The position numbers and the translations under genes are program-made. Shown in pieces: positions 1 to 9,496 of a stretch of DNA of 64,000 bases. This DNA comes from Thermodesulfatator indicus DSM 15286 (lineage in GTDB: Bacteria > Desulfobacterota > Thermodesulfobacteria > Thermodesulfobacteriales > Thermodesulfatatoraceae), in NCBI RefSeq assembly GCF_000217795.1, contig NC_015681.1:1107244-1171243 (forward strand), read 5' to 3'. Positions within the stretch are counted from its first letter, which is position 1, and every line of letters starts with the position of its first letter. The notes below the pieces were generated by a model. The model was given only the letters and a program-made list of their open reading frames with translations, made no database searches and was not told where the DNA came from.

Positions 1-183
1 GGTAATGGTGGCCCTTTTCATGCGAAGCTTTTCAGCGAGAACCTGGAGTATCTCTCTTAAAGCGTTGTCCAAATCAAGGGCCTTACCTATTATACGGCAG
101 GCCTCGTGCAAGACTTCAAGCTTACGATGTTCTAACGATTTCTCGTCTATTTTGACTTTTTTGTTAAAACTATCTTTACGCAT
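1..183 (-). CDS. nifA: NifA-like sigma-54 activator, N-terminal fragment
   Basis: The first 61 residues of a protein that continues beyond the left edge of the window. The visible part (LEVLHEACRIIGKALDLDNALREILQ in outline, then LAEKLRMKRATIT) matches the start of the N-terminal GAF domain of NifA-type enhancer-binding proteins, which sense nitrogen or redox state and activate sigma-54 RNA polymerase at nif promoters. Only this family similarity is seen; the AAA+ and DNA-binding domains lie outside. The start codon overlaps the end of nifV by 8 nt, so the two are probably translationally coupled. It could be another GAF-containing sigma-54 activator, but the position beside nifV and a perfect sigma-54 promoter upstream of nifH favour NifA. 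Confidence 0.75.
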   Translation of the reverse strand, partial: MRKDSFNKKVKIDEKSLEHRKLEVLHEACRIIGKALDLDNALREILQVLAEKLRMKRATIT

Positions 184-1351
184 TTGTCAGTTTTGTTGAA
201 AAGTCTATTTTATCAACTTCTTCACTTTTGTTTTTTACGGCAAACTGTTCGTATATTTTTTTAATTTCTTCGTCGCTTAAAGGTCGGCCGTATTTTTGGG
301 CAAGGCTACGAATCTTATTTAACAAAATTGGAAGATATTCCTCTGAAATAGTTAAGCCTAACTCCTTTAATTTTCCCTTTAAAGCTCCAAGGCCTGATTT
401 TTCTCCCAAAACCAGTTTATGTGAAAGCCCAAGCACTTCTGGAGGAAAAGGCTCATAAAGCTTTTTCTTTTTGTAAAGGCCGTCTACGTGCAAACCAGTT
501 TCACAAGTAAACAAATATCTTCCCAAAACGGGTTTAAAAGGAGAGATAGTTTCTCCGGCGTGCCAAGAAAGAAAGTGAGCCGCAAGGGGCAATAACTCAA
601 GGCGGTAGTGCTTTTCCCCGCGGCGGAAATAAAGATAAGCAAGAACTTCTTCAAGAGGGGTAATACCTGCCCTTTCTCCCAACCCTAAAAGACTTACATC
701 CACCCAGTCTGCTCCAGTTTCAAGGGCTGTTACGGCATTTCCTGTAGCCAGACCCAGATCATTATGAAAATGAAAGGATAGCTCTAGGTTCGGAAAACGT
801 TTTTTGAACTCTTCAACGAGTTTTATAACTTTTAAAGGTTGCCAAAAACTAAGGGTGTCCGAAAGACGCAAGCGTCTAACTCCTGCAGCTGAAGCTTCTT
901 CGGCAATTTGATAAAGAAAGCTTGGGGAGGTGCGACTAGCGTCTTCTAGCCCCAAAGATATATAGGAAAAGTATTGAGTAGCTTCCTCTACTAACTTTCT
1001 TATTCTTTTAAGCAGTTCTTCAGAAGTAATTTTGAGCTTGTATTTAATGTGAAGCTTAGAAGCCGGAGCACTTAAATTTATTCTTGTTAGTCCCGGAAAT
1101 AAAGTGTGAGCCAATTCCAAATCTTTTTCATTTAAGCGACACCAAAAACTAAATTTATCTTCTACTTTTTCTTTTCTAATAGCCCGCCAAATATATTCTA
1201 AATCTTTGTCTTTACGGACTATACCCAGTTCTATTTCTTCTATACCAATATCATAAAGTAAAAGCGCCAGGCGTAACTTCACTTCGGGCTTAAGATATAC
1301 TCCGAAGCGCTGCGCTCCTTCTCTTAATGTAGCATCCAGCAATTTCATCAT
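176..1351 (-). CDS. nifV: Homocitrate synthase (NifV-type)
   Basis: A 391-residue member of the HMG-CoA lyase/isopropylmalate synthase superfamily. It would condense acetyl-CoA with 2-oxoglutarate to homocitrate, the organic ligand of the nitrogenase FeMo cofactor. Visible signatures are the N-terminal DATLREGAQRFGV motif (metal and substrate binding), the HFHNDLGLA metal-binding motif in the middle, and GLGERAGITPLEE just after it. It is divergent from the nifH operon and coupled to the nifA-like gene. Superfamily paralogues (2-isopropylmalate or citramalate synthase) are possible from sequence alone, but the length (no regulatory domain) and the nif context favour NifV. No clear ribosome-binding site precedes the ATG ATG start pair. 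Confidence 0.85.
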   Translation of the reverse strand: MMKLLDATLREGAQRFGVYLKPEVKLRLALLLYDIGIEEIELGIVRKDKDLEYIWRAIRKEKVEDKFSFWCRLNEKDLELAHTLFPGLTRINLSAPASKLHIKYKLKITSEELLKRIRKLVEEATQYFSYISLGLEDASRTSPSFLYQIAEEASAAGVRRLRLSDTLSFWQPLKVIKLVEEFKKRFPNLELSFHFHNDLGLATGNAVTALETGADWVDVSLLGLGERAGITPLEEVLAYLYFRRGEKHYRLELLPLAAHFLSWHAGETISPFKPVLGRYLFTCETGLHVDGLYKKKKLYEPFPPEVLGLSHKLVLGEKSGLGALKGKLKELGLTISEEYLPILLNKIRSLAQKYGRPLSDEEIKKIYEQFAVKNKSEEVDKIDFSTKLTNA

Positions 1352-1574: not shown

Positions 1575-2432
<858 letters not shown>

Positions 2433-2457
2433 ACAAGCATATAGGGAGGACTCAAAA

Positions 2458-2775
2458 ATGAAAATGATAAAAGCCATTATCAGGCCTGAAAAGGTAGATG
2501 ACGTAGTAGAAGCGCTTGAAAAGGAAGGTTTTTTGGCCATGACCCGCATAGACGTTGTGGGGCGTGGTAAGCAAGGCGGTCTTACTATGGGTGAAATCGT
2601 TTACGACGAATTGCCCAAGTCAATGCTCCTTTTGGTGGTGGACGAAGAGGCGGTGCCCAAGGTTTGTGAGACCATTATGGAATCCGCACGTACCGGACGA
2701 TTTGGAGACGGGAAAATTTTCGTACTCCCAGTAAACCAGGTGTGGACGGTGCGCACCGGAGCCCCGGAACTTTAG
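2458..2775 (+). CDS. nifI1: PII-family nitrogenase regulator NifI1
   Basis: A 105-residue GlnB/PII-like protein. In the NifI family, NifI1 and NifI2 form a complex that binds NifDK and blocks electron transfer from NifH when ammonium is present; 2-oxoglutarate and ATP release it. The C-terminal PII signature TGRFGDGKIFVLPV is clear. The start at 2458 is chosen because GGGAGGA lies just upstream and the protein begins MKMIKAIIRPEKV, the family N-terminus; an in-frame upstream start at 2425 would overlap the end of nifH. Its place directly after nifH is typical. Confidence 0.95.
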   Translation: MKMIKAIIRPEKVDDVVEALEKEGFLAMTRIDVVGRGKQGGLTMGEIVYDELPKSMLLLVVDEEAVPKVCETIMESARTGRFGDGKIFVLPVNQVWTVRTGAPEL

Positions 2776-2792
2776 GTCTGAAAGGAGGCGTT

Positions 2793-3173
2793 ATGAGCAA
2801 GATATGTGAAATTGTGGCTATTGTAAGGCCTAATAAAATGCTGGCTACTAAGAAGGCTCTCGCTGAAATTGGCCTACCTTCGTTTACGGCCTTTGCCTGT
2901 TTCGGCCGAGGCCGCCAGGGTGGACGGATTGGCGAGCTTTCTTATCCTGTAAGCCCTGAAATTGTAGAAAAGGCTAAAGAATTAAAGCCTACCTTTATTC
3001 CCAAGCGAATTATTCTGGCTGTTGTGCCTGAAGCCATGGTGGAAAAAGTAGTGCAGACCATCATCAAAGTCAATCAAACCGGCCAGCACGGTGACGGAAA
3101 AATTTTTGTCTTACCAGTAGAGGAAAGCTTAAGAATTCGTACCGGAGAGAAAAACCTAGAAGCCCTTTTTTAA
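2793..3173 (+). CDS. nifI2: PII-family nitrogenase regulator NifI2
   Basis: A 126-residue PII-like partner of NifI1 with the C-terminal signature TGQHGDGKIFVLPV and a longer central (T-loop) region, as usual for NifI2. It begins MSKICEIVAIVRPNK after an AAAGGAGG ribosome-binding site. With NifI1 it should give post-translational ammonia switch-off of this nitrogenase. Confidence 0.95.
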   Translation: MSKICEIVAIVRPNKMLATKKALAEIGLPSFTAFACFGRGRQGGRIGELSYPVSPEIVEKAKELKPTFIPKRIILAVVPEAMVEKVVQTIIKVNQTGQHGDGKIFVLPVEESLRIRTGEKNLEALF

Positions 3174-3183
3174 GGAGGAAATT

Positions 3184-4014
3184 ATGCTTAGACATCCTTG
3201 CTTTGACCATAAAGCTCATCGTGTTGTTGGTCGGCTCCATCTGCCGGTAGCACCACGATGCAATATCAAGTGTGCGTATTGTGAACAGGGTATAGGCTGT
3301 GTCAACGAATCAAGGCCGGGGGTAGCGGGCGAAGTAATATTGCCTGAAGAGGCTATTTCTTATGTGGAGAGGGCCCTTTCCTTTGAACCTCGCCTAGAAG
3401 TCATAGGAATAGCCGGTCCAGGAGATGCCCTGGCCAATGAGGAAACATTTGTGGCCCTAAAGGCCGTAAAAGATAGGTTCCCCGAGTTAAAGATTTGTCT
3501 TTCTACTAATGGTCTGGCTTTGCCTGAAAGTCTCCCTAAGATGCTCGAAGTGGGAGTGGAGTTTGTCTCGGTAACCGTAAACTTTATTTCACCAGAAGTC
3601 GGGGCCAAATTAGTTCGCTGGGTTAAAGCTCAAGATTTACTCAAAGGAGAAGAAGCGGCTTATTTTCTTACAACTAAACAACTTGAAGGAATAACTCTAG
3701 CGGCTCAAGCTGGCCTGAGAGTCAAGGTAAATACCGTTTTAGTCCCAGAAGTAAATGAAAAAGAAATTCCTTTGATTGCTAAAGAAGTAGCTCAGGCCGG
3801 GGCCAGCCTTATGAACATAATTCCTCTTATTCCCTTGGGAGAATTTTCTAACCACAGGGCTCCTACTCAGAAAGAACTTAATAGGGCCAGAGCGAAAGCG
3901 GCTAAATATATTCCTCAGTTTCTAGTGTGCAAGCGCTGCCGGGCTGATGCCGTAGGTGTTCCCGGTTTGGCTGATGAGAATTTGTTCAGCATAAAAAATG
4001 CTGTTTCGGTGTAA
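3184..4014 (+). CDS. nifB: FeMo-cofactor radical SAM protein NifB
   Basis: A 276-residue radical SAM enzyme that builds the carbide-containing 8Fe core (NifB-co). The CxxxCxxC cluster motif is CNIKCAYC at residues 26-33. Further conserved NifB cysteines are visible at Cys6, at Cys39 and in the C-terminal CKRC pair, fitting the K1/K2 cluster sites. It lacks the C-terminal NifX-like domain of proteobacterial NifB, so it is the short form of methanogens and deep-branching anaerobes. Its place between nifI2 and nifD is unusual. The ribosome-binding site AAGGAGG fixes the start. Confidence 0.93.
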   Translation: MLRHPCFDHKAHRVVGRLHLPVAPRCNIKCAYCEQGIGCVNESRPGVAGEVILPEEAISYVERALSFEPRLEVIGIAGPGDALANEETFVALKAVKDRFPELKICLSTNGLALPESLPKMLEVGVEFVSVTVNFISPEVGAKLVRWVKAQDLLKGEEAAYFLTTKQLEGITLAAQAGLRVKVNTVLVPEVNEKEIPLIAKEVAQAGASLMNIIPLIPLGEFSNHRAPTQKELNRARAKAAKYIPQFLVCKRCRADAVGVPGLADENLFSIKNAVSV

Positions 4015-4034: not shown

Positions 4035-5465
4035 ATGCCTGTAGTTCAGCTTAAATGCAACATATGCATACCCGAAAGAAATCCACATACTATCATTGTA
4101 GATGAAGACAAGAGCACTTTACCAAAGTGCAACGCCCCTACTGTTCCCGGAGATATGACCGAACGTGGGTGATCCTATGCCGGAGCCCGCGGGGTCGTGG
4201 GCGGACCAATAGTTGATATTATCCACATGGTCCATGCTCCGGTAGGGTGTGGTTATTACACCTGGGGCACCAGGCGGCACCTGGGTGATGTTTACAGCTG
4301 GGCCCTACCTGGAGTGCTTGAGAATGAAGCCAATCACCGCCGCCACTGTTTTACCACGGATATGACGGAAAATGACATTGTTTTTGGTGGAATGGATAAG
4401 CTGAAGCAGGCCTTACTTGAGGCCTTTCGTATTAACCCGGGGGCCAAAGGCGCCATAATTTATCTTACCTGTTCTACCGCTCTTATTGGTGATGACATAG
4501 ACAATGTAGCCAAAGAAGTAATGAGAGAAACAGGGAAACCAGTTTTTGCTTGCTCTTCCCCGGGGTTTTGCGGAGTTTCCCAATCCAAAGGTCACCATGA
4601 ATTTAATTTTCAGTTCTACAAATGGCTACTCAAATACCGGGAAGAACATCCTGAAGTATGTCTGAAAGAAGAGGAAAAAACTCCGTATGACATTAACCTC
4701 ATCGGCGAATACAACATTGACTGGGATACCATTACCATCGTGCCCCTTTTTGAAAAAATGGGCATAAGAGTACTTTCCGTATTCACAGGTAATTGCCGTT
4801 TTGAGGACCTTTTTAAGATGCCTGATGCCAAGCTTAGCATTGTCCATTGTCAGCGTTCCGCTACCTATATTGCTGAGCTTATAAAACAAGGCTTTGAGGT
4901 GCCTTATATAAGGGCCAGTTTCTTCGGCCTAGGACAGACAGCCAAAGCCTTAAGGGATACCGCAGAATGGTTCGGCGATGAAAAACTGATTAAACGAACC
5001 GAAGAAGTCATAGAAGAAGAGAGCGCTGCTATTCAGAAGGCCCTTGACTGGTACCGTGATAAGCTGACTGGTAAGAGAATAGCCATCTACGTTGGTGCCC
5101 CGCGGGTGTGGCACTGGATCAAAGCCATGGAGGAGTTGGGCATGGAGGTAGTGGCCTGTATGACCACTTTCGGCCACAAGGACGATTACGAAAAAATTGT
5201 GGCCCGCTTAAAACCAGGGGCCTTGGTTATTGATAATCCTAATGAATTTGAAATTGAAGAAATGATAGAGCGCTGCAAGCCTGATCTGTTTTTGACCGGA
5301 CTTAAAGAAAAATACCTGGTGCGTAAATTCGGGGTCCCTACGCTTAATTCTCACTCTTACGAAAAAGGGCCTTACGCGGCTTTTCGGGGGTTTATCAATT
5401 TTGCCAGAGACATATATCAGGCCCTTTGTGCTCCAATTTGGAAAATTGCCCAGGAAGAATTTTAA
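4035..5465 (+). CDS. nifD: Nitrogenase alpha subunit NifD with in-frame UGA at the P-cluster ligand (putative selenoprotein)
   Basis: Reading starts at ATG 4035 after AAAGGAGGG and runs 476 residues if UGA codon 46 is decoded. Before the UGA the protein reads MPVVQLKCNICIPER... VPGDMTERG; after it SYAGARGVVGGPIVD. This is the NifD TERG-C-AYAG motif with the cysteine replaced by UGA. The remaining ligands are intact: P-cluster Cys72 (PVGCGYY) and Cys146 (LTCSTALIGDD), cofactor ligands Cys272 (IVHCQRS) and His440 (NSHSYEKGPY), and active-site Gln183 and His187 (SQSKGHH). The Sec46-Cys72 spacing of 26 equals Cys62-Cys88 in Azotobacter NifD. The N-terminus and SQSKGHH recall VnfD/AnfD, but no delta subunit follows. 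A nonsense mutation or base error (TGC or TGT to TGA) is the alternative; the exact ligand position, the hairpin and the intact operon argue for selenocysteine. Confidence 0.85.
4170..4172 (+). other. Putative selenocysteine codon (UGA) in nifD
   Basis: In-frame TGA as codon 46 of nifD, between GGG (Gly45) and TCC (Ser47). It aligns with the invariant P-cluster cysteine (alpha Cys62 in Azotobacter vinelandii). Selenocysteine characteristically replaces catalytic or metal-binding cysteines, so the position itself is evidence. The frame is open from 4035 to here and from here to the TAA at 5463-5465. No selA, selB, selD or tRNA-Sec gene is in the window, so decoding ability is not proven here. 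Confidence 0.75.
4185..4202 (+). promoter_or_regulatory. Candidate bacterial SECIS hairpin in nifD
   Basis: The mRNA can fold a 7-bp stem of GCCCGCG (4185-4191) with CGTGGGC (4196-4202), six Watson-Crick pairs and one G-U, closing a GGGU tetraloop (4192-4195). The first loop G is 20 nt past the UGA. Bacterial SECIS elements are short hairpins just downstream of the UGA with a G at the start of a small apical loop, so both distance and loop fit. The hairpin also codes for the ARGVVG residues of NifD. Folding was judged by eye; GC-rich coding sequence can form hairpins by chance. Confidence 0.6.
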
Positions 5466-5480: not shown

Positions 5481-6950
5481 ATGATAAATAACGTCAAAGA
5501 AATTCCCATAGAAGGAATAACCTATAAAGAGCTAAACATTGAAAAAAAGCCTTTGTCTAAAGAATATACTCCTCCACCGGAAGAATTGGTGCCAGCGGCC
5601 AACCGGGCTGTTTGTATTGACCCCTCTCGCACCTGTATGCCTTTTGGGGCCATGTGGGCTACTTTAGGTGTTCACCGGGGAATCCCTTTTGTGCAGGGGG
5701 CTCAGGGTTGCACTACTTATGTGCGTTATACTTTTGCCAGAGTTTTTCGTGAACCAACTCTCATTGCCAACGCCAGCTTTCACGAAGACGCAGCGGTGTT
5801 TGGTGGGCGTAAAAATCTGATAAGAGGCATAAGGAATCTGGTTTGCCGCTATCAGCCGGAGCTTATTTCCATTGTCACCACCTGTTCAAGTGAAGTCATT
5901 GGTGACGATATCCAGAGCTTTTTAGACGAGGCCCTGGAAGTTATGGAAGAAGAAATGGGGCCTGACATTTACGACGCGGTCAAATTCGTCATCGTAAATA
6001 CACCAAGTTTTGCTGGCTCCCATGTAGAGGGCTACAACCGTGCGGCCCGCGAATTTTTAAAAACGCTCGCCAAAAAAACAGGCCAGAGCGAAGATCTTTA
6101 CTTTATCCCCGGCATGATGATGCCAGGAGATATTCGCGAGTTAAAACACATGTTTGAGCTCATGGATGTACCGTACAAGATTCTTTTTGACATAAGCGAT
6201 ACCCTTGATTGCCCGCTTACCGGTATGCCTCAGATGGTTCCTTATTATCCGCCTGGAGGTACCAGAGTGGAAGACTTTGTGCGGGCCGGTAACGCTAAAG
6301 GCATCTTTGCCCTTTCTCCTGATGCTGGTGGGGCTGGGGCCAAATGGCTTGAAAAGCGCTTTAAAGTGCCGGCCTTTGTTATACCTATGCCCATTGGGGT
6401 TAAAAATACCGATAGGATGATAAAAACTATAGCTGAAATTTCAGGTCGAGGTATCCCTGATAGCCTTCGTTGGGAGCGGGGTATCTTACTTGATGCTATG
6501 GCTGACACCCTTCACTATACCATGGGGAAAAGAGTGGCCATTTGTGGTGACCCGGATTTTGTCGCAGCGGCTACGGGCTTTGTATGCGAACTGGGCATGA
6601 TTCCTACTTACATTTTGCCTGGCAGTAAAACCAAGACCGCGCTGCAAACGATTAAAGACGTCTGTGCCGAATACGATGTTGAACCTACCGTATTTGTTGA
6701 CAGTGACCAGTTTGAATGGGAATACGCCCTAAAAAATGATAAGCCCGATGTTATTTTGGGACATTCCCGCTGTGTCAATATTTCCAAAGAAATTAAAGTG
6801 CCTCTGGTGCGCTTTGGCTTCCCAGTTTACGATCGAGTGGGTTATCAGCGAGAGCCCATTGTAGGTTACCGGGGAGGCGAACGCTTCCTGGCTCGTATTA
6901 TAAACGCTATTCTTGATCAATACTTCCCAGACGACCGAGTCCAACAATAA
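5481..6950 (+). CDS. nifK: Nitrogenase beta subunit NifK
   Basis: A 489-residue partner of NifD; the alpha2beta2 complex holds the P-cluster at the alpha-beta interface. Its three P-cluster ligands are all cysteines: Cys52 (SRTCMPFG), Cys77 (GAQGCTTY) and Cys135 (VTTCSSEVIGDD). Spacings of 25 and 58 are the same as Cys70-Cys95-Cys153 in Azotobacter. TPSFAGSHVEGY and NTDRMIKTIAEISG are also typical; several segments look more Vnf/Anf-like than classical Nif. It follows nifD by 15 nt with its own GGAGG site. Because NifK keeps cysteines, only one of the six protein P-cluster ligands would be selenium. Confidence 0.95.
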   Translation: MINNVKEIPIEGITYKELNIEKKPLSKEYTPPPEELVPAANRAVCIDPSRTCMPFGAMWATLGVHRGIPFVQGAQGCTTYVRYTFARVFREPTLIANASFHEDAAVFGGRKNLIRGIRNLVCRYQPELISIVTTCSSEVIGDDIQSFLDEALEVMEEEMGPDIYDAVKFVIVNTPSFAGSHVEGYNRAAREFLKTLAKKTGQSEDLYFIPGMMMPGDIRELKHMFELMDVPYKILFDISDTLDCPLTGMPQMVPYYPPGGTRVEDFVRAGNAKGIFALSPDAGGAGAKWLEKRFKVPAFVIPMPIGVKNTDRMIKTIAEISGRGIPDSLRWERGILLDAMADTLHYTMGKRVAICGDPDFVAAATGFVCELGMIPTYILPGSKTKTALQTIKDVCAEYDVEPTVFVDSDQFEWEYALKNDKPDVILGHSRCVNISKEIKVPLVRFGFPVYDRVGYQREPIVGYRGGERFLARIINAILDQYFPDDRVQQ

Positions 6951-6992: not shown

Positions 6993-7439
6993 ATGGAAAA
7001 ATTTTGTTCTATCGTCAGGAAACTTTTAAAGGCCAAGGAAGACTCTGGCCTTAGTTTTGAAGAACTGGGCAGGGCTATTGGACGAGATAAAGTATGGGTG
7101 GCGGCCCTACTCTATCGTCAAGCAGTGGCTTCTAAAGAAGAAGCTGACAAGTTAAAGGAACTCCTTAATCTCGATGAAGAAAGCTATAAAGCCATCCAGA
7201 AAATACCTTTACGTGGATGGGAGACAGAAACCGTCCCTTCCGACCCGGTTATCTATCGCTTTTATGAGATAATGCGGGTTTACGGCCCGGCTATAAAAGC
7301 TGTTATCAATGAAACGTTTGGGGACGGCATCATGAGTGCTATAGATTTCAGTATAGACATAAAAAAACAAGAAGATCCAAATGGTGATCGGGTTGTAATT
7401 ACTTTTAACGGTAAGTTTTTACCTTTTAAGAAGTGGTAG
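6993..7439 (+). CDS. cynS: Cyanate hydratase (cyanase) inside the nif operon
   Basis: A 148-residue cyanase, which decomposes cyanate with bicarbonate to ammonia and carbon dioxide. The N-terminal helical domain is followed by the conserved catalytic domain. The catalytic triad aligns without gaps: Arg89 and Glu92 in YRFYEIMRVYG and Ser115 in GDGIMSAIDF, each 7 residues earlier than Arg96, Glu99 and Ser122 of the E. coli enzyme. IPLRG and the C-terminal ITFNGKFLP are also family features. It lies 42 nt after nifK and 16 nt before nifE on the same strand, with its own AAGGAGG site, so it should be made only when nitrogen is scarce. Confidence 0.93.
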   Translation: MEKFCSIVRKLLKAKEDSGLSFEELGRAIGRDKVWVAALLYRQAVASKEEADKLKELLNLDEESYKAIQKIPLRGWETETVPSDPVIYRFYEIMRVYGPAIKAVINETFGDGIMSAIDFSIDIKKQEDPNGDRVVITFNGKFLPFKKW

Positions 7440-7455: not shown

Positions 7456-8730
7456 ATGCTTTCTACCTTAAAAACCGAAGTCCTTCCGCCAAAGTCCTGT
7501 GGTTTAAAAACCGAGCCGGGAAGCATGAGCCAGCGAAGCTGTGTTTACTTTGGGGCTCGCTATGTACTTGGGCCGATTAAAGAAGCTGTTCATTTAGTCC
7601 ATGGGGCGGTAGGGTGTAGTTACTACGGGAAGATGGTCCGAGGAACCCCGGCTCCAGTCTGGACTACGAACATGGACGAAGAAAACGTTATCTTTGGGGG
7701 GAGAGAAAAACTAAAGAAAGCCCTTTTTCAGGCCTTACAAATTGATTCCTCAGCCAAAGGGGCCTTCGTCTATTTGACCTGTGTGTCTGGTCTCATTGGT
7801 GAAGATGTAACTTCTGTGGCTCAAGAAGTCTCTGAAAAAGTAGGGAAACCTGTAAAAGTAGTTTCTTGTCCAGGGTTTTCCGGGTTTTCTCAATCAAAAG
7901 GGCATGAACTTTCTTATAAACTCATCTTTGAGCTTATAAAACCAGTTGAACAGGCCAAAGAGCCCGTAGTGAACCTGATAGGAGAATATAACGTTGGCGG
8001 AGAAACAAAAGTTATCAAGGAACTTTTGGAAAAGCTAGGTATTAAGGTTCATGTCTCTTTGACTGGTGAGGCCACCTGGTCAAAGATAGAGACCATGGCC
8101 AAGGCGAGCCTTAACCTCATGTTTTGTGGAGCCACGGCTGAAAACTTTTGTCGAGAGATGAAAAGGACCTTCGGTATCCCTTTTATGAAGGTATCTTTTT
8201 ACGGGTTTAAATCTACTTCGGCGTCTCTAAGAAAGATTGCTGCCTTTTTTGATATTCCTGAAGAAAAAGTCGAAAAAGTAATTGCCGAAGGCGAAAAGTG
8301 GGCCTTATCCAAGATTTTTCCCTGGCGCAAATATTTTTACGGCAAGAAAGCCTTAATAGTGCTTGGTACTTATCGTCTGGGCCCACAAGGAAAAATGCTT
8401 AAAGAACTTGGGCTTGAAGTGGTAGCCGCCGCTTCTATTTTTGGCCGCCTGGATGACCATGTTGAGGCCTATTCTGTAACCTCAAGAGTAACTGACGATC
8501 CAGGTGATTGTGAGGTTGAAGAGGCCCTTAAACTTTTAAGGCCTGATATTGTTCTCACCAACGCTCGCGACCAGTGGCGGCCAGTTAAATTTGGTATCCC
8601 TGTTCTTTCTTTTCCGCAACCAAAAGAGCGAGGCCCTTATGCTGGTTATAAAGGAATGGTGAACTTTGCCCATGATCTTTACCGATGCTTGCGAGCCCCT
8701 GTATGGCAACTTTTAAGAGCAGAACTTTAG
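7456..8730 (+). CDS. nifE: FeMo-cofactor scaffold subunit NifE
   Basis: A 424-residue NifD homologue of the NifE type, which matures the cofactor before transfer to NifDK. It keeps cysteines at the cluster positions: SQRSC (equivalent to the UGA position in nifD), GAVGCSYY and YLTCVSGLIGED, plus LMFCGAT at the cofactor site. It lacks the NifD His442 region (LSFPQPKERGPY instead of NSHSYEKGPY), which separates it from a true NifD. No nifN follows, so the scaffold may be a NifE homo-oligomer, NifN may be elsewhere, or cofactor assembly may bypass NifEN. It is the last gene of the operon. Confidence 0.88.
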   Translation: MLSTLKTEVLPPKSCGLKTEPGSMSQRSCVYFGARYVLGPIKEAVHLVHGAVGCSYYGKMVRGTPAPVWTTNMDEENVIFGGREKLKKALFQALQIDSSAKGAFVYLTCVSGLIGEDVTSVAQEVSEKVGKPVKVVSCPGFSGFSQSKGHELSYKLIFELIKPVEQAKEPVVNLIGEYNVGGETKVIKELLEKLGIKVHVSLTGEATWSKIETMAKASLNLMFCGATAENFCREMKRTFGIPFMKVSFYGFKSTSASLRKIAAFFDIPEEKVEKVIAEGEKWALSKIFPWRKYFYGKKALIVLGTYRLGPQGKMLKELGLEVVAAASIFGRLDDHVEAYSVTSRVTDDPGDCEVEEALKLLRPDIVLTNARDQWRPVKFGIPVLSFPQPKERGPYAGYKGMVNFAHDLYRCLRAPVWQLLRAEL

Positions 8731-9116: not shown

Positions 9117-9148
9117 AAATGAAAATCCTTCTCAAAAGGAGGCGCGCC

Positions 9149-9496
9149 ATGCCTAAAGTATTAATTATTGCTTGTGGGTCTTATGCTGATAACCAATTTG
9201 GTTGTCCAGGGGACTGGAAGTGTTTAACCGGGGCTGTGGAAAAAAGGGGCCCTTTTGCTAATTATGATGACGACGTGAAAGTAATTGGTTTTTTAAAGTG
9301 CAAGTGCCCTGGTCGCTCTCTCATTGGGAATATCAAAGCTACCAAAGCTAAAGTAGATTTTGACGTGATACACATTTCCAATTGCATGGCCAAAGCTGAA
9401 CCTACCTGTAAAAATCACGATTTAGAAAAACTCCCGGCCCAAATCGAAGAAGCCATCGGAGTAAAAGTTGTGGTAGGTACTCATGATTTTGGCTAA
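9149..9496 (+). CDS. CGGC-domain protein, putative metal-binding
   Basis: A 115-residue protein of the CGGC domain family, known only as a small cysteine-rich putative metal-binding fold. Cysteines lie at IACGSY, GCPGDWKC, FLKCKCPGR (the CGGC-like core), ISNCM and TCKNHD; the C-terminus VVGTHDF is typical. The start at 9149 is chosen for its AAAGGAGG site; an earlier ATG at 9119 lacks one. It stands alone after the nif operon behind its own promoter. The function is unknown; a role in metal or redox handling is a guess from the cysteines. Confidence 0.75.
   Translation: MPKVLIIACGSYADNQFGCPGDWKCLTGAVEKRGPFANYDDDVKVIGFLKCKCPGRSLIGNIKATKAKVDFDVIHISNCMAKAEPTCKNHDLEKLPAQIEEAIGVKVVVGTHDFG

Follow-up and report, generated by a model that had tools for sequence, protein, structure and literature searches.

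A predicted selenocysteine ligand of the nitrogenase P-cluster in Thermodesulfatator indicus and its alternation with cysteine in related NifD proteins

The nifD gene of Thermodesulfatator indicus almost certainly encodes a protein with selenocysteine (Sec) at residue 46, as judged from comparative sequence analysis. The residue corresponds to alpha-62 of A. vinelandii, in the numbering of PMC3760896, a terminal ligand of the P-cluster. A Sec-containing NifD in this organism is already known: Howard, Kechris, Rees and Glazer (2013) assigned Sec to position alpha-62 of NifD from T. indicus, Ca. Desulforudis audaxviator and Desulfotomaculum kuznetsovii (PMC3760896), and an initial annotation of this DNA, which knew of no such protein, was wrong on this point. 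Nitrogenase component I alpha also figures among the selenoprotein families of a 2026 review (PMC13188914). Our additions are a wider distribution, a frozen hairpin after the UGA, repeated switching between Sec and Cys, and the failure of a proposed covariation with beta-Ala92; none of these was found in the literature searched, consisting mostly of papers available without subscription, nor did that literature yield any experimental follow-up of a selenolate P-cluster ligand since 2013.

The interrupted nifD frame and its distribution

The window, that is, the whole stretch of 64,000 nucleotides analysed, carries a nifD frame that runs from ATG 4035 to TAA 5463-5465 and is interrupted only by the TGA at 4170-4172 (Table 1). 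This is codon 46, within TERG-U-SYAG. The initial annotation had described this single interruption and assigned it to the P-cluster ligand alpha-Cys62. Both statements hold, as codon 46 aligns with Cys46 of the solved homolog 9spz_A (652 bits; the best PDB relative) and with Cys in all 27 Cys-type relatives. The whole-genome search (2,322,224 bases, one contig) returned one nifD, one nifK and one nifE-like gene; the second intact nifD that had been named as grounds for abandoning the Sec reading was not found anywhere in the genome. NifD is 95% identical to that of T. autotrophicus.

Table 1. Features of the nif region and other elements discussed in the text. Positions are those of the window, except for selD, which lies on L108.
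Feature	Position	Strand	Evidence or remark
nifV-like (homocitrate synthase family), divergent from nif operon	176-1351	-	TIGR02660 308.5 bits, below cut-off 462.9; Pfam HMGL-like, HCS_D2
nifH	1605-2432	+	TIGR01287 463 bits, over cut-off
P-II family regulator, nifI1 position	2425-2775	+	NF008111 76 bits, below cut-off; position conserved; start probably inside ORF
P-II family regulator, nifI2 position	2742-3173	+	NF008111 70 bits, below cut-off; position conserved; start probably inside ORF
nifB-like radical SAM	3184-4014	+	TIGR01290 259.5 bits, below cut-off 343.65
nifD, one in-frame TGA, predicted selenoprotein of 476 residues	4035-5465	+	TIGR01862; only nifD of the genome
TGA, predicted Sec46 (A. 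vinelandii alpha-62, terminal P-cluster ligand)	4170-4172	+	column TGA in 23 genes, TGC/TGT in 27
SECIS-like hairpin GCCCGCG-GGGU-CGUGGGC	4185-4202	+	synonymous constraint, predicted fold; near-invariant block to 4207
nifK, ligands Cys52/Cys77/Cys135, beta-92 Ala	5481-6950	+	TIGR01286 355 bits, below cut-off 427; 9spz_B 488 bits
cyanase (cynS), between nifK and nifE-like	6993-7439		TIGR00673 195.5 bits, over cut-off
nifE-like	7456-8730	+	TIGR01283 321 bits, below cut-off; position conserved in related loci
CGGC-domain protein (PF08821), just 3' of nif operon	9119-9496
tmRNA gene, tag ADEYNYAMAA	39697-40055
selD, predicted selenoprotein (AGUASK)	L108, 1399-2436	-	UGA at usual Sec position

Conservation of the UGA in relatives, a check proposed with the initial annotation, was found in two phyla. 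Among the 12 full-length orthologs recovered from 60 relatives in Thermodesulfobacteriota, 11 had exactly one stop, a TGA at the equivalent of codon 46. One TGA was also present in nifD of 10 of the 20 matching genomes of one class of Bacillota and in 6 of 21 genomes sampled across that phylum, the two samples overlapping in part. The deduplicated clade set held 23 distinct TGA genes and 27 TGC/TGT genes (these 50 members and four more distant rows make up a total of 54). No TAA or TAG interruption occurred in the full-length orthologs examined, and the codon-46 column alternates between TGA and TGC/TGT only. Such a pattern, TGA only and always at one codon, is far beyond chance. Howard et al. 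called the codon an "amber stop codon, TAG" in their three sequences (PMC3760896), whereas it is TGA here, in 23; the two descriptions agree on residue 46/alpha-62, the Sel genes, the bSECIS and the absence of nifN.

The initial annotation saw its main rival in a base-call error or a nonsense mutation; nifD would then be misread or in decay. TGA is one substitution away from TGC and TGT, and in a 2024 paper on Desulfofundulus the nifD of some strains is described as fragmented, with absent or weak N2 fixation attributed in part to this "fragmentation" (PMC11206085). Nevertheless, the conserved codon excludes an error in practice, being shared by 23 distinct genes whose genomes span two phyla and were sequenced independently, and the sequence is constrained on both sides of the UGA and shows a Sec-specific synonymous constraint, so that we give this explanation almost no credence. 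The median pN/pS was 0.35 for the 45 codons upstream of the UGA and 0.27 for the rest of nifD, with synonymous sites near saturation in many pairs; this similar purifying selection indicates that the upstream and downstream parts form one protein. Since one Desulfofundulus nifD (L043) and near-identical genes carry the UGA, the "fragmented" NifD is probably a Sec codon misread. A UGA taken for a broken gene may thus mislabel organisms as non-fixers, the 2024 report on Desulfofundulus probably being one case.

A near-invariant hairpin and the selenocysteine machinery

A SECIS-like hairpin begins 12 nt 3' of the UGA. The block GCCCGCGGGGTCGTGGGCGGACC (23 nt) is identical in 20 of the 23 Sec-type genes, across the two phyla. 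Codons +5 to +11 after the UGA encode A R G V V G G, and their synonymous divergence (codon pairs differing) was 0.00-0.17 among Sec-type genes versus 0.54-0.75 among Cys-type genes, the gene-wide medians being 0.54 and 0.53, respectively. In the Sec set, this was the lowest synonymous divergence of 472 such windows. The energy of the hairpin relative to shuffled sequences was not unusual (z = -0.21; mean z of -1.0 in Sec genes and -0.33 in Cys genes), and no covariation was measurable because the element is almost invariant. The case for a SECIS therefore rests on the synonymous constraint. In two Sec-type genes, L050 and L132, two pairs of the common register are broken; the fold predicted for them is a 7-bp stem that keeps the same 3' strand in a shifted register. 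A third, L040, is without the common hairpin. The Rfam model SECIS_1 gave no match to nifD, and likewise none to its controls.

In Escherichia coli fdhF, Sec is decoded by SelB and a SECIS, a short hairpin 3' of the UGA within the coding region. The nifD element resembles it in being a short intragenic hairpin immediately 3' of the UGA and in having GGUC in or near the apical loop; it differs in its stem and shows no obvious 5' bulged U. The predicted hairpin at 4185-4202 would be the downstream SECIS expected of a bacterial selenoprotein gene.

The genes for the remaining machinery, which the initial annotation had listed for a search, are all found in the T. indicus genome: selA (637.8 bits), selB (394.7 bits), selD (372.1 bits), which has an in-frame UGA of its own, and tRNA-Sec with anticodon UCA, the full set expected for a bacterial selenoprotein. 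This bears on the explanation that an altered code or a suppressor tRNA makes the UGA a codon for Cys or Trp. The open frame alone fits any sense reading, but neither Cys nor Trp would account for a Sec-type hairpin under synonymous constraint, the presence of tRNA-Sec, SelA, SelB and SelD, and a UGA in selD at that gene's usual Sec position; moreover, there was no other convincing read-through gene within the window. We find such recoding scarcely credible. The reading of the UGA as Sec, put forward in the initial annotation, is upheld by the conservation of the codon, the synonymous constraint on the hairpin, the Sec machinery and the lack of another nifD. The machinery was rejected as a predictor of Sec-NifD: selB scored above cut-off in all 27 NifD genomes tested, of both Sec and Cys type, and is necessary yet non-discriminating.

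SelB carrying Sec-tRNA would bind the nifD hairpin, and Sec would be inserted at the UGA in place of termination. By homology, Sec46 would then take over from Cys alpha-62 the role of a terminal Fe ligand in the P-cluster, and ligation by Sec46 is likely. Alternatively, the UGA could be a regulatory stop at which translation mostly terminates, with Sec inserted only when selenium is sufficient, the codon and the hairpin chiefly setting NifD dosage. Howard et al. raised control of NifD synthesis (PMC3760896), the UGA comes soon after the start codon, and relatives function with Cys in its place. However, dosage control leaves unexplained why a cluster-ligand residue alternates with Cys alone. 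We consider it improbable as the chief function, and it is compatible with a Sec ligand.

The nif locus and the type of enzyme

The locus reads nifH, two P-II genes, nifB-like, nifD, nifK, cyanase and nifE-like, with the nifV-like gene divergent upstream. The initial annotation called the neighboring nif genes intact; they are indeed all open, but it was silent on nifN, which was not found anywhere in the genome in a whole-genome search. Caldicellulosiruptor fixes N2 without nifN (PMC8209448), so this absence is compatible with activity. NifD exceeds the cut-off of TIGR01862, nitrogenase component I alpha (549.9 versus 486 bits), and falls below that of TIGR01282, the Mo-nitrogenase NifD equivalog (455 versus 653.55 bits), and it is therefore filed under the broader family and not the Mo-specific equivalog. 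Howard et al., who also reported the SECIS and the Sel genes, placed the Sec proteins in their Group Nif-III and pointed out that nifN was absent and 15N proof lacking (PMC3760896). Two features of that group, no nifN and Sec or Cys at alpha-62, are found in T. indicus, and its enzyme would be an otherwise ordinary nitrogenase of the NifDK type belonging to this group without NifN.

The other ligands are in place, as the initial annotation had stated, and do not vary among relatives: Cys72, Cys146, Cys272 and His440 are invariant in the 50 NifD compared, and Cys52, Cys77 and Cys135 in the 49 NifK. It is conceivable that Sec is inserted but that the enzyme is a nitrogenase-like reductase acting mainly on a substrate other than N2. 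NifB, NifK and NifE score under their NCBIfam cut-offs, and nifN is absent; D. kuznetsovii was reported as non-fixing and D. salinus as fixing at a very low rate (PMC11206085), while N2 fixation is untested in three Thermodesulfobacteria with nif genes (PMC5877335). For strains of the Sec type, the published activities are thus very low or nil (PMC11206085). This reading is nonetheless unlikely, given that the residues matching Gln191, His195, Cys275, His442 and Arg96 by motif are invariant in Sec and Cys types, that the locus has nifH and a nifV-like gene, and that growth on N2 and acetylene reduction are documented for Caldicellulosiruptor, which is also devoid of nifN (PMC8209448).

The cyanase gene at the nifK/nifE position was intact in only 1 of 24 related loci (L051); in T. 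autotrophicus (L031) it lies in pieces in different frames, and the other related loci have no cyanase there.

Residue beta-92 of NifK, which we place three residues before the second ligand cysteine, is Ala in 23 of 23 Sec forms and in all 21 scorable Cys forms of the inner clade. Among the Cys genes, Ser is confined to the five outliers L145-L149; the alignment also places Ser there in 9spz_B. The covariation of Sec62 with beta-Ala92 proposed by Howard et al. (2013; PMC3760896) is thus unsupported: Ala marks the inner clade, not Sec. No other column of the 50 NifD or 49 NifK cleanly separated Sec from Cys. The five outlying genes appear to be of the Caldicellulosiruptor/9spz Nif-III type, whose NifD is homologous to that of T. 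indicus and which shares the lack of nifN in Caldicellulosiruptor, but differs from it in having Cys instead of Sec and, in L145-L149 and 9spz_B, Ser at beta-92.

Switching between predicted selenocysteine and cysteine

The NifD tree implies at least eight Sec/Cys changes, seven of them forced by well-supported branches. With a single gain followed only by losses, 14 losses are needed on the tree as drawn, and 10 if Sec was regained in L040; all of these counts could shift with horizontal transfer or mis-binned metagenome contigs. Four Cys genes (L004, L048, L125 and L131) are one base off the consensus of the Sec hairpin, and two of them, L004 and L048, share an identical GTG-to-GTA change that breaks a stem pair. 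These four look like recent reversions from Sec to Cys. The Sec-type gene of Desulfovirgula thermocuniculi (L040; nifD from 4243, TGA at 4378) is nested among Cys-type genes, has a divergent sequence after the UGA and carries Asp in place of an otherwise conserved Gly; its UGA would be either an independent gain or part of a decaying element.

A tentative reading of these patterns, one that we would not yet favor, is that the Sec ligand is a labile selected trait, gained once long ago with a single SECIS, repeatedly lost to Cys with the SECIS surviving as a nearly intact remnant, and regained at least once with an unrelated hairpin (L040). If this is true, nature has provided matched pairs of Sec and Cys nitrogenases. 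It is also possible, though short of an even chance, that the selenolate tunes the P-cluster (in its kinetics, redox properties or resistance to ligand damage), with a benefit confined to some conditions, since the lineage switched repeatedly between Sec and Cys. The effect on redox potential or on tolerance of heat, sulfide or oxygen proposed in the initial annotation found neither support nor contradiction in our analysis. Closely related versions of the two types, such as L126 and L125 or those of Desulfofundulus and Moorella stamsii, make the role of the ligand testable.

Two further observations concern individual branches of the tree. The NifD of L010 (G002), listed under the same genus as the window, is identical to that of L037, and both group with genes of another family, which points to either a transfer or a mis-binned contig. 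L051, grouped with L004, has a Cys-type nifD with a near-consensus SECIS-like block.
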